A DNA stretch of 10,338 nt, taken from an uncultured Lentisphaeria bacterium (lineage in GTDB: Bacteria; Verrucomicrobiota; Lentisphaeria; Victivallales; Victivallaceae). The stretch spans positions 1 through 10,338 of the forward strand of contig CAIJKT010000273.1 of assembly GCA_903821255.1 (NCBI GenBank). The letters run 5' to 3'. Both the position numbers and the translations under genes were made by a program. Below the pieces are notes generated by a model. It did no database searches. It was not told the origin of the DNA and saw only the letters and a program-made list of their open reading frames with translations. The number at the start of each line of letters is the position of its first letter. Position 1 is the stretch's first letter. This document shows positions 1-10,338 of this stretch, one piece after another.

Positions 1-39
1 GCGCCTCGCGCCGGTGACTATTCATCGAGCAACTGGTGA
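1..39 (+). CDS. Possible C-terminal tail of a repeated gene (partial, 5' end outside window)
   Basis: Frame 1 is open from the window edge and reads APRAGDYSSSNW before a TGA at 37-39. The right repeat arm encodes the same tail on the minus strand, and there the frame stays open through the 21 bases beyond the shared repeat. This is what would be seen if both repeat arms were the 3' end of one multicopy gene, such as a transposase, pointing inward. Twelve codons are too few to prove coding and the family is not recognised. Confidence 0.22.
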   Translation, partial: APRAGDYSSSNW

Positions 40-96
40 CACGACGGCTGTTGGACTTCTTCAATTTTTAAATTTTAGTTTCATTCTTTTTTGCTG
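1..96 (+). repeat. Left arm of a 96-bp perfect inverted repeat
   Basis: Positions 1-96 are the exact reverse complement of 10222-10317. The inner boundary is sharp: after the shared TTTTTTGCTG the left side continues TTGAGG, whereas the right arm read inward continues ACGTAT. The outer boundary is unknown because the window begins inside the repeat. The outer half is GC-rich and contains a direct GGTGAC repeat (13-18 and 35-40); the inner half (about 57-96) is AT-rich. It could be the end of a multicopy insertion sequence, a dispersed repeat, or a recombination site. The repeat itself is certain; its nature is not. Confidence 0.95.
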
Positions 97-104
97 TTGA
101 GGTA

Positions 105-133
105 TTGACAAATCCGATGCAATCTGTTATCCT
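105..133 (+). promoter_or_regulatory. Sigma-70-type promoter of the prepilin-like gene
   Basis: A perfect -35 hexamer TTGACA (105-110) is followed by a 17-nt spacer and the -10-like hexamer TATCCT (128-133). The expected transcription start is near position 140, giving a leader of about 80 nt before the ATG at 223. The promoter begins only 8 nt inside the inner end of the left repeat arm, so it is not part of the repeat. A small dyad, GTTAT (126-130) and ATAAC (138-142), overlaps the -10. Confidence 0.72.
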
Positions 134-146
134 ATCAATAACGAAT

Positions 147-162
147 TATACATATTTGTATA
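147..162. promoter_or_regulatory. Operator-like dyad TATACA-N4-TGTATA
   Basis: The 16-bp sequence TATACATATTTGTATA has perfect 6-bp inverted half-sites around a 4-bp centre. It lies just downstream of the predicted transcription start, a classic place for a repressor to block transcription. Short AT-rich dyads with TGTA/TACA cores are typical targets of GntR- and LacI-type regulators, so the regulator encoded at 1172-2218 is the obvious candidate. No second copy was seen upstream of the regulator or hydrolase genes, so the assignment is inference. Confidence 0.5.
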
Positions 163-210
163 CTGCATAAAAAAGCGATGAATCTCAGACAATTAAAAAA
201 CAGGAAGCGA

Positions 211-215
211 GGAGG
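211..215 (+). promoter_or_regulatory. Shine-Dalgarno that fixes the prepilin-like start at 223
   Basis: GGAGG lies 7 nt before the ATG at 223. The longer in-frame start at 178 has no comparable site and would put a charged, atypical 15-residue extension ahead of the prepilin leader. Confidence 0.85.
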
Positions 216-222
216 CATTAAA

Positions 223-993
223 ATGAAAAAAAATCGGCAGCAAGGCAATTTCACACTCATCGAACTCCTGGTTGTGATCGCGATCATCGCGATTTTGGCC
301 GCGATGCTGCTTCCTGCATTAAGTAAAGCCAGAGGAACAGCCAGACAGGCGGCCTGTCAGAGCAATCTGAAACAACTTGGTACCGCGCTTGGCATGTATA
401 TCAATGACAATCTCGAATGGATACCGTCCGGGCTGACCGCCGGCGGCAACAATCAGCCGGAAGTTCTGCTCATGACATATACAAACAGTCCGAACGTTAT
501 CGGGGCGCGCGGCACCTGGGGGCAAGGCAAGCAACCTAAAGGCATGGTCTTTCTGTGCCCTAGCGACACTTTGCAGGATCAGGCATCACCATCAACGTTC
601 ATGGGGTGGAACTATTCTTATGCGGCAAATATCTTCATCAACGACTGGTCACAGCGCGGCAAAGCCGGCACCCGTCCGAAAGGAACACAATACACATCCA
701 CCTGGAAGATGTCTGAATTCAGGAAACCCGATCAGTGCGCATATTTGACCGACTCCGGGGCCAACTCCGCGGCTAATTTCGGGATAGTCAAATGTCCTTT
801 AGTTTATGTTCTCTACGGCAGTGCGGCTCATCCGTCATCCTGGATGACCGGTTATGACCGCCACAACAAAGGCGTGAACTTCCTGTTTGCCAGCGGACGG
901 GTTGGTTATATGCCGGTAAAGAGCCTTTACAGTCTGCCGATGTGCAATACCGCGGAAGGTAAACTGTTCTGGCAGCCGGACGACAGGATATAA
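223..993 (+). CDS. Prepilin-like secreted protein (type II secretion/DUF1559-like, 256 aa)
   Basis: The protein starts with a short charged leader (MKKNRQQGN), then [20 protein letters not shown], the class III signal of type IV pilins and pseudopilins. It has Glu at +5 relative to Phe10 and one hydrophobic helix at about residues 12-31. The residue before the expected cut (F10) is Asn9, with Gly8 one step upstream, whereas most prepilins have Gly at -1. After the helix come the usual [19 protein letters not shown] stretch and a globular domain. Near the C-terminus, [18 protein letters not shown] (His214 onward) resembles the H-x-G-G-x-N-x-LF-x-DGHV motif of the DUF1559-like proteins common in Planctomycetota and Lentisphaerota, with the DGH part changed to SGR. 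It is likely processed by a prepilin peptidase and anchored in or exported across the inner membrane. Such proteins often neighbour glycan-degradation genes in these phyla; the exact job is unknown. No terminator follows, so read-through into the regulator is possible. Confidence 0.9.
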
Positions 994-1171
994 TATTAAG
1001 TCAGCGTCTATGGTTGCAATGAATCTTTTATTCGGCGGTAGCCTGAATTTACGGAGACATGCAGTTTTCCGGGCGAGGCAATGGTATAACAACTTGAATT
1101 TTCGCCGGTTAATATCAAATTAAGCTGTAATTATTGCGTTGACAAAATTTTACATTAAGGATGGAAAAATC

Positions 1172-2218
1172 ATGAGTGAAGCAATTCCTTCATACTTAAA
1201 GATACGCCAATATGTATTCAGTTGTATAGCGAATGCAAAGCTTGACGGAGGCACTGCCAGAATTCACACCGAAGAGGAACTGTGTAAGATTTACGGAGTA
1301 TGCCGGACGACCGTGAGAAAAGCGCTGAACCATTTCGTGGCGGAAGGACTGCTGATCAGAAAACCGCGGCTGGGCACTTTCATCCGCACTGAAATTATTG
1401 ATTCGTTCAATATCAATTTTGGTAAAACATTGACTCTCGGCCTGATTTACGGCGACGGCATGGTGACCTTTCTCGATGAATATTTCATGAGCCAGACGGC
1501 TGAAGTGTTTCAAAGCATGGTGAACGCCGAATGTCTGTGCCGACAGCTTTATTTTGATTTAAACCCGGAAAAATCCGCGGTACGGCTGGAAAAAAGCAAA
1601 CTTGACGGCATAATCTGGATGTCGCCGTCAAGATGCCACGCGCCGGTTTTTGAAATATTCAAGGCTTTAAGTATTCCTGTTGTATCTACTTTCCCGCTGT
1701 TTCTGAGCGATGATCTCAACAGTGTCGAACTGGATTATTATAAGTGCGGATATCAATTAGCCGAATATCTATTGAAGCGCGGACACAAGAAAATATTATA
1801 TATCAATAAAAACCCGCCAGATGTGAACGCGGTGAAAAAAGCAGGATGCATGGCCGCGTTTGCAGACCGCAAAGCCGCCTGGAATGAACATCTCTGGTAT
1901 TGCGGTTTTAATTCTCTTTCGGAGCTGCAAATACGCTCAGTCATCAAAAATGCCGGAGATTTCTCCGCAGTCAACTGTCATGCCGGATACGTCAGCACGG
2001 TTAAACACGAACTTGCCGGACGCAAAGAGATTCAAATAATTCATAACACCTGCAGCGCTTCCGCCGCCGCAGGCAGCGGCTCGGCGGAAATACTGCTGCC
2101 CACGGCGCAGGCCGGAAAGGACGCCGTTGACATACTGCTTAATATAATAAATAAAAGAACTGTTGAGCCTGTCCGCAAATTCGTTGAATCCAGGATTGTT
2201 GAACCGGGAACAATGTAA
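1172..2218 (+). CDS. GntR-family regulator with LacI-type sugar-binding domain (348 aa)
   Basis: Residues about 8-75 form a GntR winged helix-turn-helix: YLKIRQYV at the start, a recognition helix around GVCRTTVRKALNHF, and the wing ending in RKPRLGTFI. Residues about 87-345 resemble the periplasmic-binding-protein fold of LacI-type effector domains, with LGLIYGDG opening the domain, DGIIWMSPS, YLLKRGHKKILYIN, and a closing segment DAVDILLNIINKRTVEP. This GntR-plus-LacI arrangement is that of AraR, which binds DNA as a dimer and releases it on binding a sugar. It probably controls the hydrolase genes 53 nt downstream, and possibly the prepilin-like gene through the dyad at 147-162. The ATG at 1172 is chosen with AAGGA at 1157-1161; an in-frame TTG at 1139 would add 11 residues before the normal domain start and is less likely. 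The inducer cannot be read from the sequence. Confidence 0.9.
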   Translation: MSEAIPSYLKIRQYVFSCIANAKLDGGTARIHTEEELCKIYGVCRTTVRKALNHFVAEGLLIRKPRLGTFIRTEIIDSFNINFGKTLTLGLIYGDGMVTFLDEYFMSQTAEVFQSMVNAECLCRQLYFDLNPEKSAVRLEKSKLDGIIWMSPSRCHAPVFEIFKALSIPVVSTFPLFLSDDLNSVELDYYKCGYQLAEYLLKRGHKKILYINKNPPDVNAVKKAGCMAAFADRKAAWNEHLWYCGFNSLSELQIRSVIKNAGDFSAVNCHAGYVSTVKHELAGRKEIQIIHNTCSASAAAGSGSAEILLPTAQAGKDAVDILLNIINKRTVEPVRKFVESRIVEPGTM

Positions 2219-2271
2219 ATTTCACCGCTATTGTAATAAATCTGAAAAAGAAAGTATGCGGGATGTCTGTT

Positions 2272-4908
2272 ATGAAGAAAACGTATGGATTGCTTTTTGT
2301 CACGCTCCTTTTAGCTATGCCCGTTCATGCCGTCTCAATTACCGGAAACACGCCGGCTGCCGGCAGCGAAGCAGAGTACTATACCCCCGGAATCATTAAC
2401 CCGGCGGAAGGCACGGTTGAGCTCGCCGCATTGCCTACGCGCCCGGGTTCGGAATTTCAGAATGAATGGTATTTTGCGTTTGGACTCACACCCGGGCAGC
2501 CCATCAGGGGCAATAATTTGCTGGCGCTTTATACTCCGTCCGGCGAGAGCGGTTTCACCGGAATTTCAGCATTGGCCCGCATTGGCGACAAAACATATGC
2601 CGCAGCTAATAAAAACCAGGATTTTCTCAAACCGGGAGTTCCGGTCAATATTGCGTTGAGCTGGGGCAAGGCCGGGGTGATGATTTATGTTGACGGGAAA
2701 CTTTACGCCAAAGGCCCTTTCCCTAAAGACGGGGCGCTGAAACCAATGTCGGCATTGTTCAGAATAGGCATTGATTCTCCGTTCAATGTCCAGGCGGCAA
2801 AAATATCGACACGTCAGTTGCCGCCGGATAAACTCGAGGCGGATCCGGCAAAAAGCTTCGCCCGGACTTCCGATACTTCGTTTTTGTTGCACAAAGACAA
2901 ACCTGCGGAGTACTTCTCAACCGATTATGCCGGGAAAAATTTCTCTGCATTAATGCCCTTATGGCGGCTGTCCGGAGCAATGTCTCCTGCTGATGAAAAA
3001 AGCGAAATCACACTGATCGGGCTCAATCTGTCTCCCGGCCCGGCAACTTATAAAATCAAAATTGACGCGAAGAATTTTGAAGACGCTGACGCCGGCTCGA
3101 TAAGCAAAGACATCGTGTTGTCCCCTGCTCCGAAATTTACGGAACAGAAACTTCAGTTGCCGGTGAAGGATCCCGGCTTCTACAAACTCAATATTGCGAT
3201 TACCGGCCAGGACGGACAGACCACCGCCTGGGAAAGCACATACATGGTTTATCCGGCCAATGAGAAAAATGTCAAGGATGGAAAATTTGCCGGTTATATT
3301 GGTCATAACATGCTCGAACAGCCGGAAGTGCTGAACAAGCTGGGCATCCGCTGGGGACGTGCCTGGAATGACGGGGCTGACTATTTTCTCTGGTTCAATA
3401 TCGAACCGCGGAAAGGCTTTTTTGACTGGACTCGCACTGATAAAGCAGTTGCAAATGCAACCAGAAACGGCGTTAATATTCTCGGCGTGCTTGGCTATCC
3501 TCCGCTGTGGGCGGCTGAAAATCCGCAATATGTCAAGATTCCTCACAGCCTGGCTTATATGTCCGGACGCTGGAAACCGCATAGTGTGGAGGAATGGAGC
3601 AACTATGTTTATCAGACCGTGTCCCGGTACAAAGGCCAGGTTAAGTACTGGGAAATCTATAATGAAGTGGATTTTCACCCGCCGGGCATGCCAGCCTCGT
3701 TCTCCGGTTCCACCAGAGATTATTTCGAATTGCTCAAGGCCGCCTGGAATGCAGCTAAAAAGGCTGATCCTGAGTGTAAAATTCTGATCAGCGGATTCAG
3801 CACTGCTGCAGTCTGCGACTTGAACATGCCGTTCGATCTGTTGAAGATGGGAGCCGCGAAATATATTGACAACTTCAGCATACATTCCTACCAGGGCGTT
3901 TTAGGTGTTGATAAACTGCGGCAGGCAATTGACGCGGCTGCTCCGGGAATGCCGTTCTGGCAGACCGAGCAGATGTGGCACGAAGTGGAACCAGCTAAAC
4001 GGCCGGATCTGACTGCCGCAATCCAGTTCTGGTTCATTGAAAGACAATTTGAGCACTACTTCAATTTCGGCCTTTCTTTCTTTTCAAACAATTACACCAG
4101 GTCGCCGGAAGCAGTGCTGCTGACATTGGCCGCCGTTCAAAACAATCTGCGCAAGTGCGATTCATTTATCGGAACCATGCCGGATGCAAAAATACGGGAG
4201 TTTGATGTAAAACACTTTTTTAAACGCACTGACGGAAATTATTTTACCGCCATCGGCAAAACGGATACTAAATCCGAGTTGCAGTTGTCGGGAGATATTA
4301 TCCGGGCTGAAGATATTTCAGGCCGTGAATTGCCGGTTGTCCGCAACGGGGGGACCTCCGTGCTGCCGCCGGCTTCAATCGTTTATATCGTCAGCAAAAC
4401 TCCGCTGAAGGTAGTCGAGGCTAAATATAAGGCTAAACCGCTGGTCGCAAACCCCGGTTTCGAAGCCGTTTACGGTGATTCCATGGGCGGCTTGAAAAGC
4501 CTTATCGCCAATGAATGGAAGTTCAACGCCAAAAACGGCGAAATTACTCTTGACCCCAATGCCCGCTCCGGCAAATATGCTTTAAAACTCTCATCATCCG
4601 CCGGCACGACGAACGGGGTTTCCGCCTCGATTGAAACCAGAGACCTTGCCCCCGGCAGGTACGTTATTTCCGCATGGCTGAAGAGCGGCAAAGATAAACC
4701 GGGCAATGCGTCATTTGCCATGATGGATTTGGATGTGAAGCGTTATGTCTCCAAAGATATTTCCGGCATTTCCGCGCAGCAATACACTAAATATACGGCG
4801 GAGTTTGAGTTGAAGGCCCGTCCCGCGGGCATCGTCAAGTTTTATATCGGCGCAAAACCGGACAACTCAATCCTCTGCGATGACGTCGATTTAGTGAAAT
4901 TGCCGTGA
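2272..4908 (+). CDS. Secreted multidomain glycoside hydrolase, clan GH-A-like, paralogue 1 (878 aa)
   Basis: A Sec signal peptide ends in VHA (cleavage after residue 20). Residues about 21-185 look like a LamG/concanavalin-type beta-sandwich (NEWYFAFGL, NIALSWGKAGVMIYVDGKLYAKG). About 225-340 is a second beta-rich domain. About 345-665 is a (beta/alpha)8 hydrolase: LNKLGIRWGRAW, the WEIYNEVD strand with probable acid/base Glu465, the HSYQG strand, and FWQTEQMW with probable nucleophile Glu566. The two Glu are 101 residues apart, as in retaining clan GH-A enzymes. The closest resemblance is to GH39-like enzymes, but NEV replaces the common NEP and the family is not certain. A C-terminal beta domain follows, then about 725-878 (NPGFE...SGKYALKL...LCDDVDLVK) resembling CBM4/9-type carbohydrate binding. 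It should act on a polysaccharide outside the cytoplasm; the substrate is unknown. The ATG at 2272 gives the same MKK start as its paralogue and has GCGGG upstream; an in-frame ATG at 2263 is an alternative. Confidence 0.87.
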   Translation: MKKTYGLLFVTLLLAMPVHAVSITGNTPAAGSEAEYYTPGIINPAEGTVELAALPTRPGSEFQNEWYFAFGLTPGQPIRGNNLLALYTPSGESGFTGISALARIGDKTYAAANKNQDFLKPGVPVNIALSWGKAGVMIYVDGKLYAKGPFPKDGALKPMSALFRIGIDSPFNVQAAKISTRQLPPDKLEADPAKSFARTSDTSFLLHKDKPAEYFSTDYAGKNFSALMPLWRLSGAMSPADEKSEITLIGLNLSPGPATYKIKIDAKNFEDADAGSISKDIVLSPAPKFTEQKLQLPVKDPGFYKLNIAITGQDGQTTAWESTYMVYPANEKNVKDGKFAGYIGHNMLEQPEVLNKLGIRWGRAWNDGADYFLWFNIEPRKGFFDWTRTDKAVANATRNGVNILGVLGYPPLWAAENPQYVKIPHSLAYMSGRWKPHSVEEWSNYVYQTVSRYKGQVKYWEIYNEVDFHPPGMPASFSGSTRDYFELLKAAWNAAKKADPECKILISGFSTAAVCDLNMPFDLLKMGAAKYIDNFSIHSYQGVLGVDKLRQAIDAAAPGMPFWQTEQMWHEVEPAKRPDLTAAIQFWFIERQFEHYFNFGLSFFSNNYTRSPEAVLLTLAAVQNNLRKCDSFIGTMPDAKIREFDVKHFFKRTDGNYFTAIGKTDTKSELQLSGDIIRAEDISGRELPVVRNGGTSVLPPASIVYIVSKTPLKVVEAKYKAKPLVANPGFEAVYGDSMGGLKSLIANEWKFNAKNGEITLDPNARSGKYALKLSSSAGTTNGVSASIETRDLAPGRYVISAWLKSGKDKPGNASFAMMDLDVKRYVSKDISGISAQQYTKYTAEFELKARPAGIVKFYIGAKPDNSILCDDVDLVKLP

Positions 4909-5028
4909 CCGGCAAATTTCACAGCGGCAGGTATGTAACGAACCGGCAAACACAAAGGCATCCGGGAGAATCGCGAAGATGTAAAGGTTATTTTTGAACG
5001 GCTCCAAAATATTAAAACAGGAAATCCT

Positions 5029-8000
5029 ATGAAGAAAATGTGCGGATTGTTTTTTGCCATGCTTTTTTTAACCGCTTCCGCCAATGCGGCTTCAATCACC
5101 GGCGACATGCCGGCATCCGGCAATGATGCGGAATTTTATGCGCCCGGAATCATCAACCCGGCGGAGGGCACGGTTGAACTTACCGCCGTGCCGTCGCGCC
5201 AGGGCTCTGAATTTCAGAATGAATGGTACTTTGCTTTTGGCATAACGCCGGGCCGGAGCCTTAAACAAGGCAATAATACTTTGCTGGGGATATATACTCC
5301 CTCCGGCGAGAACAAGTTAACCGGCTTTGCCGCGGTGGCCCGCATCGGCGACAAAAGATATTCCGCGGAAAATAAAAACAAGGACTTTCTCAAGCCGGGC
5401 GTTCCGGTTAATATTGCATTGAGCTGGGGCAAGGCCGGGCTGCTGCTTTATGTTGACGGCAAACTTCATGCCAAAGGGCCTTTCCCTGAAAACGGCGTGC
5501 TCAGCCCGATGCCGGCGCTGTTTAAATTAGGAACGGACTCTCCGTTCAATGTCAAAGCCGCTAAAATATCGGTGCGGCAATTGTCGCCGGTGATGCTTAC
5601 GGAAGCGTCTTCCAAAAATTTCCCGCAAACCGGAGATACCTCATTTCTATGGAGCAAAGGTAAAGACGCGGAATATTTCGTAACTGATTTCAGCCGCAAA
5701 GCCAGCCCGGTGCTGATGCCGGTATGGCGGCTGGCCGACGCCATGGCCCCCGCCGGTGAAAATGCCGGAATCACCCTGGCCGGACTGAATCTCGGCAGTA
5801 TTCCCGCAACATATAAAATCAGCATTTCCGCCAAAACTTTTGAAGGAGTATCCGCGGGAACGGCAAATCAGGAAATAACACTGCCGCCCGCGGCAAAGTT
5901 CATTGAACAATCGGCGGCATTGCCGGTAAAATCCGCCGGTTTTTATAATCTTGACATAAAAATCACCGGGCCGGACGGGCGTTCCGCCGACTGGAAAAGC
6001 ACTTATATGCTTTATCCGGCGGAGGACAAAGCCGTGCGCGATGGAAAATTCGCGGATTATATGGGTCATCATCTGTTGGAGAGCCCGGAAGTGCTGAACA
6101 AGCTGGGCATCCGCTGGAGCCGCTCCTGGGATTGCGGCAGATACTTTCTCTGGCATGACGTGGAACCGCAGCGCGGTGTCTTTGACTGGGCAAATGCCGA
6201 TCAGGCGGTAGCCAGGGCGGCGAAGAACAGGATAAATATCCTCGGCGTGCTGGGGTATCCGCCGCTGTGGGCCGCGGAAAAACCGGAAAGCGGCAAAATG
6301 ACGCATGAGCAGTCCCATATGTCCGGACGCTGGAAACCGCGCAGCGTCGAGGAATGGAGCAACTATGTTTATCAGACCGTGTCACGATACAAGGGACAGG
6401 TGAAATACTGGGAAATATATAACGAAGTGGATTTTCACCCGCCGGGCATGCCGGCAACGTTTTCCGGCACGACGCAGGAATTTTTCGAAATGGTCAAGGC
6501 CGCCTGGAATGCCGCGAAAAAGGCCGATCCTGAAGCAAAGATACTGCTTGGCGGATTCTCCACTCTTTCCGTGTGCGACGTGAACATGCCGTATGATCTG
6601 CTGAAAATGGGCGCGGCAAAGTATTCCGACATTCTCAGCATGCATTCTTATCAGGGAGTGCTTGGCGTGGACAAGCTGCGGCAGGCGGTCAGGGCCGCGT
6701 CTCCGACCATGCAGCTCTGGCAGACGGAGCAGTCATGGTTCCAGATTGACGATCCCCGGAAACAGGCGGAATTAACGGCCGCCATCCAGTTCTGGTTCAT
6801 AGAAAAAGGTTTCGACAAATATTTCAATTTCGGCACTTATGTTTTCACGAACCGGCATACCCGTTCGCCGGAACCGCTGTTCCAGGCGCTGGCCGCCGTC
6901 CAGAACCAGCTCCGCAAATGCGATGCGTTTACCGGAACGCTGCCGGATGCGGCAGTGCGGGATTTTGACGTGAAACACGCATTCAGGCGCACCGACGGCA
7001 ATTACTTTACCGCCATCGGCAAAGTGGATGCCAGAACCATTCTGCGCCTGTCCGGCGACATCATCCATGCGGAAGACATGTTCGGACGCGAATTGAAAGT
7101 TGCACGTGACGGCGGCGCCTCCGTGCTGCCGCCGGCGGATATCGCATTGATTGTCAGCAGAACTCCGCTGAAGGTGCTTGTGGCGAAATACCAGATCAAG
7201 GCGCCGTGCCTGAATCCCGGATTTGAGGATATTTCCGGCGACAGCACCGGCGGCTTGAAAGGCCTCGTCGTCAACAACTGGACGTTCCGGGCGACAACTT
7301 ATGACAAGGCCGGAGAAATTCTGCCGGACCGGCGCGCGCGCACCGGCAAATATGCGCTGAAAATATCCGCTTCCGGCCAGGGCCGGGTCTATGCGTTCTT
7401 CGAGACCCTGGGGCTGGCGGCCGGCAAATATACATTCTCCGCCTGGCTGAAAAGCGCGGACGGCAAACCGGCAACCGCATATTTCTCCATGTTTGACACG
7501 GTCGGAAAAAGTATTGAAACCAGAAAAATCGCCGGTGTCTCCACTTCGGAATATGCAAAATACACTGTGGAATTTGAATTGAAGAAACGCCCCGAAGGCA
7601 ACGTTATGTTTATCATCGGCACCGGTTTGGACAAAGAACAGTGTTCGATCCTGTGCGACGATGTCGAACTGGCGAAACAGCCGGTCATGCGCCCGGATTT
7701 AACCGTAAACGTCGGAATCGACAATCCGAACGGACAACTGGTATTCAAGTCAGGCATGCAGGAGGCCGATCTTCAAAACATGGTTTCGCGCCTTGGCGGC
7801 GCTCAGACAATTGGCGGGGTGACGGTGGAGGTCAGCCGTACTCCGGCAGTCCTGTCCGGCGGCGAATGGAGCGGAACCGCCGGCAGAACATTCCGCATTC
7901 CGCTTGCGGGATATTATTCCAAAATTGCTTTTCTAGTCGGAGCGATGTTCGTTCCGGCTCAGGGCGGCGCCGTGTTCGGCACGATCAACATCAGATACAG

Positions 8001-8244
8001 CGATGCCAGTTCAGCCGTCCTTAATCTGGAAAATAACAAAAACATCCGTGACTGGTGGCTGGCGGCGGTTCCTGGCGGCATTGCCCCGGATTTAATCTTT
8101 GCCGATGCCGCATTGCAGGAATTCGGTTTGTTCATGCCGGTATGGAACAATCCGGCGCCGGGCAAAGAAATAGCATCCATTGAATTTAAAGCTGACACCG
8201 CCGGACTTTTATGCCTGGCCGCAGTCGTCGCGGAAAAGAAATAG
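5029..8244 (+). CDS. Secreted multidomain glycoside hydrolase, clan GH-A-like, paralogue 2 with extra C-terminal domain (1071 aa)
   Basis: This is a clear paralogue of the preceding gene, colinear along its first ~885 residues. It has a signal peptide ending ANA (cut after residue 20), the LamG-like domain, the intermediate beta domain and the barrel with probable acid/base Glu466 (WEIYNEVD) and nucleophile Glu567 (WQTEQSW). The C-terminal beta domain and the CBM4/9-like domain (about 727-884, NPGFE to LCDDVELAK) follow. It then continues with about 187 residues absent from paralogue 1 (about 885-1071). These include LAGYYSKIAFLVGAMF, TINIRYSDASS, NNKNIRDWW and GKEIASIEFKAD, a pattern of a beta-sandwich, probably carbohydrate-binding, accessory domain found on hydrolases of this phylum group. 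The residues after the nucleophile and in the barrel's C-terminal half (SWFQIDDPRKQ; NFGTYVFTNRH) differ from paralogue 1, suggesting related but not identical substrates. The start at 5029 has ACAGGA at 5017-5022. It is probably co-transcribed with its neighbours: 120 nt after paralogue 1 and 19 nt before the next gene. Confidence 0.88.
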   Translation: MKKMCGLFFAMLFLTASANAASITGDMPASGNDAEFYAPGIINPAEGTVELTAVPSRQGSEFQNEWYFAFGITPGRSLKQGNNTLLGIYTPSGENKLTGFAAVARIGDKRYSAENKNKDFLKPGVPVNIALSWGKAGLLLYVDGKLHAKGPFPENGVLSPMPALFKLGTDSPFNVKAAKISVRQLSPVMLTEASSKNFPQTGDTSFLWSKGKDAEYFVTDFSRKASPVLMPVWRLADAMAPAGENAGITLAGLNLGSIPATYKISISAKTFEGVSAGTANQEITLPPAAKFIEQSAALPVKSAGFYNLDIKITGPDGRSADWKSTYMLYPAEDKAVRDGKFADYMGHHLLESPEVLNKLGIRWSRSWDCGRYFLWHDVEPQRGVFDWANADQAVARAAKNRINILGVLGYPPLWAAEKPESGKMTHEQSHMSGRWKPRSVEEWSNYVYQTVSRYKGQVKYWEIYNEVDFHPPGMPATFSGTTQEFFEMVKAAWNAAKKADPEAKILLGGFSTLSVCDVNMPYDLLKMGAAKYSDILSMHSYQGVLGVDKLRQAVRAASPTMQLWQTEQSWFQIDDPRKQAELTAAIQFWFIEKGFDKYFNFGTYVFTNRHTRSPEPLFQALAAVQNQLRKCDAFTGTLPDAAVRDFDVKHAFRRTDGNYFTAIGKVDARTILRLSGDIIHAEDMFGRELKVARDGGASVLPPADIALIVSRTPLKVLVAKYQIKAPCLNPGFEDISGDSTGGLKGLVVNNWTFRATTYDKAGEILPDRRARTGKYALKISASGQGRVYAFFETLGLAAGKYTFSAWLKSADGKPATAYFSMFDTVGKSIETRKIAGVSTSEYAKYTVEFELKKRPEGNVMFIIGTGLDKEQCSILCDDVELAKQPVMRPDLTVNVGIDNPNGQLVFKSGMQEADLQNMVSRLGGAQTIGGVTVEVSRTPAVLSGGEWSGTAGRTFRIPLAGYYSKIAFLVGAMFVPAQGGAVFGTINIRYSDASSAVLNLENNKNIRDWWLAAVPGGIAPDLIFADAALQEFGLFMPVWNNPAPGKEIASIEFKADTAGLLCLAAVVAEKK

Positions 8245-8263
8245 TTACGGGAGATGATTGCTT

Positions 8264-8980
8264 ATGAAGTCAAAACCTGAATCCGTAGTTTTCATTGTGG
8301 CGCATCCGGACGATGTGGCTCACGCCATGGGCGGCACGGCATGGCTGCTGCGCGACAAATACAGCCTTCATGTCTTTTGCGCCACCCGCGGCGAGCGCGG
8401 AATAGCGGGCGGAACTCCCGAAGCGGCGGCAGGCATTCGCGAAAAAGAGGAAATGGCCGTATGCCGCAGATTAAACGCCGGGCTGACCTTTTTATCCCAG
8501 ATGGACGGCGAGGTATATTCCACCCCGGAAGCCTGTCAAATCGTGGCCGGCGAATTAAAGCGGCTGCAACCCAGGGCGATCTTCACCCTCTGGCCGGTAA
8601 ACCGGCATCCGGATCATGTCGCCGCTTATGACATCGCCATGCAGGCAGTAAAATACTCCGGCATCTCTCCGGACACTGACGTGTTTATGGCCGAAAACGA
8701 CATCGGCGGCGTCACCCGCCAGTTTGAACCTGACATCCTCGTGGATATTTCCGACGTTATCGAGCAGAAAAAGGAACTCGTCCGGCTGCATAAATCGCAG
8801 AATCCGGATGAGGAGGCGGTTAATCTGGTGATCGGACGCAATGTGTTCCGGGCTAAATTCACCCATTGCGCTTATGCGGAAGCATTTAAAATGACATCCC
8901 CGGTCACCGCGTATCAATCCGGTCATGTGGCGGGGGAAGTTCTGATCAATATCCGGAATTCGAAGGAGCAGCAGGCATGA
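8264..8980 (+). CDS. PIG-L/LmbE-family N-deacetylase, BshB1-like (238 aa)
   Basis: This is a cytoplasmic protein (no signal peptide) of the zinc-dependent PIG-L deacetylase family, which removes acetyl groups from GlcNAc-type sugars. The first metal/catalytic motif is AHPDDVAHAMGG (His14, Asp16, Asp17) and the second is RHPDH (His115, His118). TRGERG after strand 2, the HKSQ segment, and AEAF near the C-terminus match the subgroup containing the bacillithiol enzyme BshB1, in which the motif is usually HPDDVE; here the E is replaced by A. The catalytic residues are present, so it is likely active. The context, directly behind two secreted glycan hydrolases (19-nt gap) and translationally coupled to a second PIG-L gene, favours a role in deacetylating imported amino sugars over thiol synthesis. 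No BshA or BshC homologue is present. The ATG at 8264 is preferred, with GGAG at 8250-8253, over an upstream in-frame TTG at 8258. Confidence 0.9.
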   Translation: MKSKPESVVFIVAHPDDVAHAMGGTAWLLRDKYSLHVFCATRGERGIAGGTPEAAAGIREKEEMAVCRRLNAGLTFLSQMDGEVYSTPEACQIVAGELKRLQPRAIFTLWPVNRHPDHVAAYDIAMQAVKYSGISPDTDVFMAENDIGGVTRQFEPDILVDISDVIEQKKELVRLHKSQNPDEEAVNLVIGRNVFRAKFTHCAYAEAFKMTSPVTAYQSGHVAGEVLINIRNSKEQQA

Positions 8981-9645
8981 GTTCAGCGTCTGACAAAGGA
9001 ACCATCGTTCTGTTCGCGCCTCATCCGGACGATGAAACGCTGGGGTGCGGAGGTTATCTTGCTAAAAAAATTGACGAGGGGTACGAGGTTTTCGTCGTTG
9101 TCCTGACCATGGGGGAAAAACTTTTCTCTGTCATGCTGAATATTTTTGAAGATCCGTCCCCCCGGGAAGTCTGCGCCGTCAGAAGAGATGAAACCAGGCG
9201 GGCGACGGCGATTATCGGCCTCAAACCGGAGAATCTGCTGTTTCTGGATTTCGAAGATGCGATGCTGGAGAAACAGCGGGATGCGGTCGTTGCCGGAGTC
9301 ATTCAGATTCTGCGGGAAAGAAAGCCGGACGAGGTTATGTGCACCAGCCAGTATGAAGGCCATCCGGATCATGTGGCGGCATACTGGATTGTCCGCGGTG
9401 CCTGCGAAAGAACCGGATTAAAGATTCCAGTCCGCAGATATATCACATCGCTGAAAGCCGGAATTTCGCCTGACCGGCTGCCGGAGGTCGTTGAAACCGT
9501 GGATATAACCAAATATCTGCCGCTGAAAAAGCAGGCGGTTGCGCAATTCCAGGCCCATCTGGGAATACTCTCCCCCAAACAGTCCCGCCCTATCGCCGCA
9601 AGTTTTGACGAATATCTAAAACCCGAAGAGCGGTTTATTCTGTAA
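8977..9645 (+). CDS. PIG-L/LmbE-family N-deacetylase, second copy (222 aa)
   Basis: A second cytoplasmic PIG-L enzyme. The canonical metal motif APHPDDETLGCGG holds His16, Asp18, Asp19 and Glu20; GHPDH (His129, His132) supplies the third ligand. The length is typical of the family. The central region (AVRRDETRRATAIIGLKPENLLFLDFEDAML) and the C-terminal half differ strongly from the gene before it, so the two are distant members, not a recent duplicate. The ATG at 8977 overlaps the upstream stop (ATGA) and has AAGGAG at 8963-8968, so translation is coupled and equimolar synthesis is likely. The two may act in sequence on different substrates or form a heteromer (inference). It is the last + strand gene of the presumed operon; a terminator specific to this strand is not evident. 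Confidence 0.92.
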   Translation: MSSASDKGTIVLFAPHPDDETLGCGGYLAKKIDEGYEVFVVVLTMGEKLFSVMLNIFEDPSPREVCAVRRDETRRATAIIGLKPENLLFLDFEDAMLEKQRDAVVAGVIQILRERKPDEVMCTSQYEGHPDHVAAYWIVRGACERTGLKIPVRRYITSLKAGISPDRLPEVVETVDITKYLPLKKQAVAQFQAHLGILSPKQSRPIAASFDEYLKPEERFIL

Positions 9646-9653
9646 CTTTCCTG

Positions 9654-9694
9654 ACAAAAAAAATCCCGCGAAAGAAAAATTCTCACGCGGGATT
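9654..9694 (-). terminator. Intrinsic terminator of the Cys-rich lipoprotein gene
   Basis: A perfect 9-bp stem (AATCCCGCG at 9662-9670 with CGCGGGATT at 9686-9694) encloses a 15-nt loop. On the minus strand it is followed by a run of eight or more T (the A-run at 9654-9663). It lies just downstream of the stop codon at 9708. The + strand side lacks a T-run after the stem, so it would stop the upstream operon only weakly. Confidence 0.85.
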
Positions 9695-9707
9695 GAATTA
9701 CGACAGC

Positions 9708-10091
9708 TTACTTGTCATCACAATCTTTGGGAGCAGGCTTGCAGCCTTCGCATTTGCAGGCAGCTCCGTCTTTGCAGCAGCCGCAGGCATCTTTGCCGTC
9801 TTTCGCGCAGGTGCAGGCAGCCGGTTTGTCACAGCAGGTGCATTTAACTTTATTGCAGCAAGTGCATTTAGCGCCGTCTTTGCAGCAGGTGCTTTTAGCG
9901 CCGTCTTTGCAGCATTCGCATTTGCAGGCGCCTTTGTCGTCTTTCGCGCACTTGCAGTCTGCTTTGCCGCAGCATGAACAAGCGGACTTGTCTTTACTGG
10001 CGAACGGACACCAGCTCGGGCATGAACTGCATCCGGACATGAAGAACGCAACAGCCATTCCCAGCACGCACAACATTAGCAACTTTTTCAT
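9708..10091 (-). CDS. Cysteine-rich lipoprotein with CC-repeat units (127 aa, metal-binding candidate)
   Basis: The protein has a type II signal peptide (MKKLLMLCVLGMAVAFFMSG) with the lipobox MSGC, acylated Cys21 predicted. The mature part is about 107 residues and contains 29 cysteines by direct count, many as CC, CxC and CxCC. The middle repeats every 8-9 residues: CCKDGAKST, CCKDGAKCT, CCNKVKCT, CCDKPAACT. Charged residues are mostly Lys and Asp, giving a hydrophilic, low-complexity chain with no other domain. This is metallothionein-like in cysteine content, but it is exported and lipid-anchored, so a metal-sequestering, redox or disulfide-rich surface role is suggested and not proven. 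The start has a perfect AGGAGG (10097-10102) 5 nt ahead. It is transcribed convergently with the hydrolase operon and is probably independent of it. I do not recognise a named family. Confidence 0.85.
   Translation of the reverse strand: MKKLLMLCVLGMAVAFFMSGCSSCPSWCPFASKDKSACSCCGKADCKCAKDDKGACKCECCKDGAKSTCCKDGAKCTCCNKVKCTCCDKPAACTCAKDGKDACGCCKDGAACKCEGCKPAPKDCDDK
9867..9914 (-). repeat. Direct repeat of a 21-nt CCKDGAK codon block in the Cys-rich gene
   Basis: Two identical 21-nt blocks (9867-9887 and 9894-9914) occur at a 27-nt period, encoding successive CCKDGAK units. A third, diverged copy lies at 9759-9779 (CCKDGAA). The near-identity at DNA level suggests growth of the gene by slippage or duplication. 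Confidence 0.85.
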
Positions 10092-10161
10092 TTCTTCCTC
10101 CTGTTTATACTTTGGGTTCTTTTTTAAGACGCCGACATGGCAGTCTTGTTTCCTTCTTCAT

Positions 10162-10190
10162 TCATAATAATAGTTAAAATAACGTGTAAA
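10162..10190 (-). promoter_or_regulatory. Probable sigma-70 promoter of the Cys-rich lipoprotein gene
   Basis: On the minus strand TTTACA (10190-10185) is followed by a 17-nt spacer and TTATGA (10167-10162); the overlapping TATTAT (10169-10164) at 15 nt is an alternative -10. The surrounding 10150-10220 is strongly AT-rich. The site lies between the right repeat arm and the gene's AGGAGG. Confidence 0.5.
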
Positions 10191-10221
10191 TAATAAAAAG
10201 CAATATTTGAAAATAATACGT

Positions 10222-10317
10222 CAGCAAAAAAGAATGAAACTAAAATTTAAAAATTGAAGAAGTCCAACAGCCGTCGTGTCACCAGTTGCTCGATGAATAG
10301 TCACCGGCGCGAGGCGC
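10222..10317 (-). repeat. Right arm of the 96-bp perfect inverted repeat
   Basis: Exact reverse complement of positions 1-96, with its inner end at 10222 (CAGCAAAAAA). The 21 bases beyond (10318-10338) have no counterpart visible on the left because the window starts inside that arm, so the true repeat may be longer. The two inner edges bracket about 10.1 kb. Confidence 0.95.
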
Positions 10318-10338
10318 TTTCCTTATTTTTCGATTGTA
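10279..10338 (-). CDS. Possible C-terminal tail of the repeated gene (partial, right arm)
   Basis: On the minus strand the frame is open from the window edge for 19 codons, including seven outside the confirmed repeat, ending in APRAGDYSSSNW and a TGA at 10281-10279. It matches the tail at the left edge. About 57 nt of non-coding sequence then separate the stop from the inner end of the repeat, as at the 3' end of many insertion sequences. The family is not recognised, and the short length makes this tentative. Confidence 0.25.
   Translation of the reverse strand, partial: YNRKIRKAPRAGDYSSSNW

Follow-up and report, generated by a model that had tools for sequence, protein, structure and literature searches.

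A Lentisphaeria contig probably caught between two copies of a Tn5-like insertion sequence with proposed promoter guidance

TnGBS, ISLre2 (p-MULT 3) and part of the ISKra4 group (p-MULT 4) are described as inserting at a fixed distance upstream of sigmaA promoters (PMC3942029). The spacing is 15-17 bp for TnGBS, with a criterion of 13-17 bp being used in that study, and it is mostly the right inverted repeat that adjoins the promoter in these elements (PMC3942029). In the sections of this source used here, TnGBS is proposed, but no more than proposed, to contact the polymerase initiation complex, and oriented fixed-distance insertion, found there in two Mutator-type lineages, is called a 'unique insertion specificity' (PMC3942029). 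Our literature searches, conducted outside ISfinder and most subscription journals, found no promoter targeting outside the Mutator type.

The insertion sequence (IS) analysed here resembles these elements, as far as they are described in those sections, in its fixed short distance from the promoter and in having its right end on the promoter side. Their transposases, however, are of Mutator type, with a C/D(2)H motif 11-19 amino acids after the second D (PMC3942029); this motif occurs in 1 of 49 transposases of the present family, which is not of Mutator type by this measure and gives a Tn5-like model. A Mutator-type IS missing from the structure-search listing may nonetheless be similar. In addition, elements with near-perfect repeats are reported there to insert both ways (PMC3942029), whereas our relative with 14/14 matching termini (L050, a single copy) keeps the orientation. 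The mode of working is known from TnGBS-type elements; the identity of the transposase differs.

The DNA analysed (the window) is a contig of 10,338 nucleotides from an uncultured Lentisphaeria bacterium. An earlier note on it had described a perfect 96-bp inverted repeat with different inner flanks. This is correct: positions 1-96 and 10222-10317 are reverse complements with 0 mismatches, and the inner flanks diverge from the common edge ...TTTTTTGCTG onward. A repeat comparison within the window can extend the pair to 113 nt at 94% identity, but this was rejected, the 17 additional bases being flanking DNA that matches by chance. Outward, the right arm runs on for 21 nt (10318-10338) to the end of the window. 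The features are collected in the table.

Features of the 10,338-nucleotide window, with the basis or remarks for each
Feature	Position	Strand	Basis or remark
Right (3') end, IS copy A	1..96	+	Cut by window start, edge at 96; identical in 17 or more further copies
Predicted 9-bp target duplication, copy A: TTGAGGTAT	97..105	+	Nine paired sister copies; partner outside window
Promoter-like TTGACA-17-TATCCT	105..133	+	Offset 8 from copy A; outlier, most copies 17-18
Prepilin-type N_methyl / DUF1559 protein	178..993	+	Pfam; first gene downstream of copy A
GntR/LacI-type regulator	1139..2218	+	Pfam; interior gene, not part of IS
Two tandem paralogous GH10-like proteins	2263-4908, 5029-8244	+	Profile matches and DNA similarity; interior
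Two PIG-L type deacetylases	8258-8980, 8977-9645	+	Pfam; interior genes
Small Cys-rich lipoprotein-like ORF	9708..10091	-	First ORF downstream of copy B
Promoter-like TTGCTT-16-TATTTT	10176..10203	-	Offset 18 from copy B
Predicted 9-bp target duplication, copy B: ACGTATTAT	10213..10221	-	Nine paired sister copies
Right (3') end, IS copy B	10222..10338	-	Cut by window end, edge at 10222

The tandem GH10-like genes encode CBM_4_9-like C-termini and share blocks that are 72-80% alike at the DNA level; the pair is likely to represent a gene duplication, judging from this similarity. The small ORF near the right edge contains many Cys-Cys pairs and gives no Pfam or NCBIfam match; there are DNA-similar stretches in one related genome (G002, below) and, at 69-77%, in another (G001). 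Rfam (at gathering thresholds) and ARAGORN find nothing in the window. Positions 4928-5008 are the 3' half of another dispersed, MITE-like repeat, whose consensus has the ends AGGAG.../...CTCCT and an internal hairpin. When 40 of 135 (G001) and 40 of 188 (G002) first-look candidates for this repeat were scored all matched, giving at least 40 copies per metagenome-assembled genome (MAG).

The earlier note considered the repeat to be beyond chance and asked for its copies to be counted. A search of public genome contigs with a 64-nt arm core returned 18 exact matches, 16 in the Lentisphaeria MAG bin-4837 (G001) and 2 in LJ_bin-1925 (G002), with none in the viral contigs searched. The arm is therefore a real multicopy element, and neither a product of chance nor a private palindromic artefact. 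From position arithmetic, each of the 16 G001 copies sits at a contig end and retains 135-140 nt of the element. On one G002 contig (L015) a transposase C-terminus is encoded outward of the arm, with its stop about 154 nt from the edge, while the second G002 copy (L003) retains only a short remnant of it. These observations make the arm the 3' terminus of a mobile element, with the window a contig caught between two copies. The assembler would have stopped at both, since the element is repeated; this was one of three options in the earlier note, and the one that stood. Promoter targeting was not among them.

A complete relative of 2,054 bp (L050, positions 1198-3251 of its G001 contig) has termini that begin CAGC... 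and match at 14/14 positions, a 9-bp duplication (ATTTTTTAA) and a transposase frame of 515 codons. In a G002 relative (L052) the transposase frame is overlapped by an ORF matching DUF6788 (E 3.5e-18). For the window's own subfamily, left ends (CAGCAACAAAGAATCAG) were located in both G002 and G001. Nine of the 13 G001 left-end contigs could be paired with right-end contigs by identical 9-mers (L131, L132, L133 and L142 found no partner in this way), and one left/right pair in G002 shares an 8-bp duplication. These private duplications show that the sister copies are simple insertions. Terminal inverted repeats, a transposase gene, target duplication and multiple copies, the features of a simple IS, are all found (L050/L021 and the nine pairs). 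The element is clearly multicopy, with a relative in which a DUF6788-type ORF overlaps a Tn5-like DDE transposase of about 500 amino acids and which carries a 9-bp duplication.

The modelled transposase has an RNase H fold like that of the Tn5 transposase, with D, D and E, which places it in the IS4 superfamily. Judged by the Y(2)R(3)E(6)K signature, it is not a strict IS4 family member: in 49 transposases R and K are present in every case, Y in none (G in 28, A in 21), and the E-K spacing is 6 in 18 and 7 in 31. Nor does the family have the single ORF of strict IS4 members, as the DUF6788 ORF overlaps the transposase frame; the duplication does agree with theirs, which is about one helical turn (9 bp in the nine pairs and L050, 8 bp in one pair). 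Compared with IS50/Tn5 and the IS4 family, as described in the part of PMC2266710 drawn on here, it therefore differs in the missing Y of YREK, in its two overlapping ORFs, in scoring far below the NCBIfam IS4 cut-off and in its promoter-anchored targeting. Four members tested against the NCBIfam equivalogs IS1380, IS4 and IS701 reach 15.8-29.2 bits against cut-offs of 115-180. There is some likeness to IS1380 (17/20 members) and IS701_3 (12/20) in weak profile matches (E <= 1), but the four members give at most 29.2 bits for IS1380 and 21.7 for IS701, where the cut-offs are 170-180. One transposase queried against PHROGs gave no match, a PDB sequence search with the L076 transposase gave no relevant match, and a plasmid search returned two remote matches annotated as hypothetical protein. 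One search of 194 genomes found the transposase in 10, and an alignment-based search of 387 genomes found it in 42, both samples being drawn from one phylum.

We collected right-end flanks by the sequence of the element end alone. This gave 33, or 32 once the minus-strand flank of L050, a left end, had been dropped. The triplet TTG lies at offset 17 from the edge in six of the 32 and at offset 18 in 21, against a mean of 0.6 at offsets 30-99; these 27 show the fixed distance upstream of sigma70/sigmaA promoters which defines promoter targeting. Within offsets 16-19, 30 have TTG. Using an approximate promoter matrix, the best-scoring promoter falls at 16-19 in 26 of the 32 flanks, compared with a mean of 2.2 and a maximum of 6 in 500 first-order Markov samples built from the 33 flanks. 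When the 30 flanks are aligned on TTG, the letters after a spacer of 17 are T22 A23 T25 A19 A15 T25; TATAAT-like hexamers (at least 4/6) occur at spacer 17 in 22 of the 30, the next most frequent being spacer 10 (10 flanks) and spacer 19 (9). An ORF start lies no more than 350 nt downstream in the same direction in 28 of 32 flanks, as found by a simple script that returned some implausible starts. Statistically, then, insertion occurs in one orientation, and the -35 box of a sigma70-type promoter usually follows 17-18 bp downstream of the right end.

There are exceptions, and the window's own copies are poor examples of this spacing. The promoter of copy A is an outlier (see table), and in copy B the TTG at 18 is outscored in the promoter matrix by a weaker-placed TTTACA-15-TATTAT at offset 31. 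L015 has TTG at 16 with a better promoter match at 7, and L012 has no TTG at 16-19. In L005, by eye, a TTGACA lies too near the -10, but the same -10 is preceded, across a 17-bp spacer, by TTGTTT at offset 18. Judged by eye, L010 and L018 seem to lie within genes; both have TTG at 18 but a poor -10, and may discriminate sequence reading from polymerase docking. As a separate observation, the downstream ORFs resemble LacI or GntR regulators in 11 of the 32 flanks by eye (L003, L013, L020, L021, L025, L041 and L055-L059).

The left ends behave differently: TTG lies at 16-19 in 2 of 16, or 1 of 15 without L023, which is in fact an L050-type right end that shares the search motif. Other multicopy ISs with a DUF6788 ORF but different termini are found in G085, G196 and G123 (loci L204-L232). 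Those of G085 and G123 are like the present element in having the DUF6788 ORF followed by an ORF of transposase length, in being multicopy and, in many cases, in having short direct duplications; they are unlike it in their termini and in the absence of a fixed promoter spacing. TTG at 17/18 is seen in two of their 21 right ends and in none of their 20 left ends; their genomes are other than, and less AT-rich than, those of the element, and the count omits seven G196 copies whose ends could not be set. DUF6788 as the sole cause of targeting was rejected on these grounds.

For distant relatives we used the right ends of 23 copies, 10 set by script (termini and duplication) and 13 by eye from the terminus alone. 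TTG is at 17-19 in 13 of 23 (7/10 by script, and 6/13 by eye in a set biased by having been picked with the flanks already seen), with a maximum of 4 in any other three-offset span. The set includes copies of one element or subfamily (L068/L076, L081/L083, L113/L122 and L114/L121) and excludes L095 (weak termini), L111 and loci whose right end was not set (for example, L066, L067, L086, L087, L091 and L096). In one subfamily (L068, L076, L113 and L114) TTG lies at 29-30; in L079, L097, L098, L101, L121 and L122 it is at neither position. A 32-bp spacing for L081/L083 was discarded because both have TTG at 18, where they are counted. By arithmetic, the IS edge and the -10 are 41 bp apart in the main group, 51-52 bp apart in the L068/L076/L113/L114 subfamily and 31 bp apart in copy A. 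At most, these values hint at a ladder with steps of about one helical turn.

Taken together, it is probable, and we hold this with some assurance, that the window is a contig lying between the right ends of two independent, oppositely oriented IS copies of about 2 kb, whose insertion was guided by promoters, probably through sigma/RNA polymerase. The promoter itself would direct the transpososome, most likely by letting it dock on promoter-bound sigma/RNA polymerase. Insertion guided in this way would leave the core promoter and the gene intact. We propose more tentatively, and with less than even confidence, that a widespread family of the Tn5/IS4 superfamily has evolved oriented docking on sigma70-RNA polymerase independently of the Mutator-type TnGBS, in helical-turn steps (31, 41 and 51-52 bp) and with the DUF6788 protein or the transposase in contact.

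The main rival to polymerase docking retains the same IS and geometry but has the transposase or the DUF6788 protein read a TTG-like sequence directly. We give it roughly a one-in-three standing: TTG is the strongest signal, and L010 and L018 have it with a poor -10. On the other hand, the -10 letters are strongly conserved at spacer 17, and 17 anchors other than TTGACA still have TATAAT-like hexamers at spacer 17 in 10 cases and at 16 in 6 (yet also at 19 in 7). Moreover, a two-fold symmetric transpososome that reads DNA should give the motif on both sides, which the left ends show in only 1 of 15, and one subfamily has its TTG at 29-30 bp.

A composite transposon of 10 kb, mobilised by both flanking copies, was among the options in the earlier note and would suit the two inverted copies that bracket the segment, but it is very unlikely. 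The next nine bases past the edges differ (copy A, TTGAGGTAT; copy B on the minus strand, ACGTATTAT), each inner flank has its own promoter-like site, and the nine sister copies, each with a private 9-bp duplication, are simple insertions; the window itself holds right ends only, the outer junctions of A and B falling beyond it. Most of the segment is also a chromosomal locus: contig C401 of G002 has counterparts of window positions 1087-4924, 5009-10147 and 10174-10208 (79-89% identity) in unchanged order, and continues beyond the right target without an IS. This comparison is usable for the right side only, because different DNA lies upstream of the first gene there. The 117-nt right end is identical (117/117) in copy B, G001 and contig C388 of G002; since the locus is only about 80% alike in G002, this suggests that the IS may have spread recently between species.

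The same observations count against the note's other option, an invertible segment with the arms as its recombination sites. Perfect inverted repeats would suit such a segment, but here the repeat belongs to the end of an element that is multicopy and bears a transposase, which makes this reading highly improbable; homologous inversion between two IS copies is possible but would be incidental. Equally hard to credit is an absence of targeting, with random insertions of which only the gene-sparing ones, upstream of promoters, survive. The gene does stay intact after insertion upstream of its core promoter, but survival cannot fix the spacing to 1-2 bp, nor the orientation, and other DUF6788 ISs lack such spacing. 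A palindromic assembly artefact, which the note had named as a refutation and which would fit a window that starts and stops inside the arms, has almost no chance of being correct, since two independently named MAG assemblies contain this arm next to different flanks, and the flanks pair through 9-bp duplications.

If the same geometry is used with a Tn5-like transposase, this would be a convergent safe-harbour strategy. As the Tn5 mechanism is well understood, promoter finding by a bacterial transposon would become directly testable. DUF6788, a domain of unknown function, would acquire a functional setting, and promoters of uncultured Lentisphaeria could be located through such elements.
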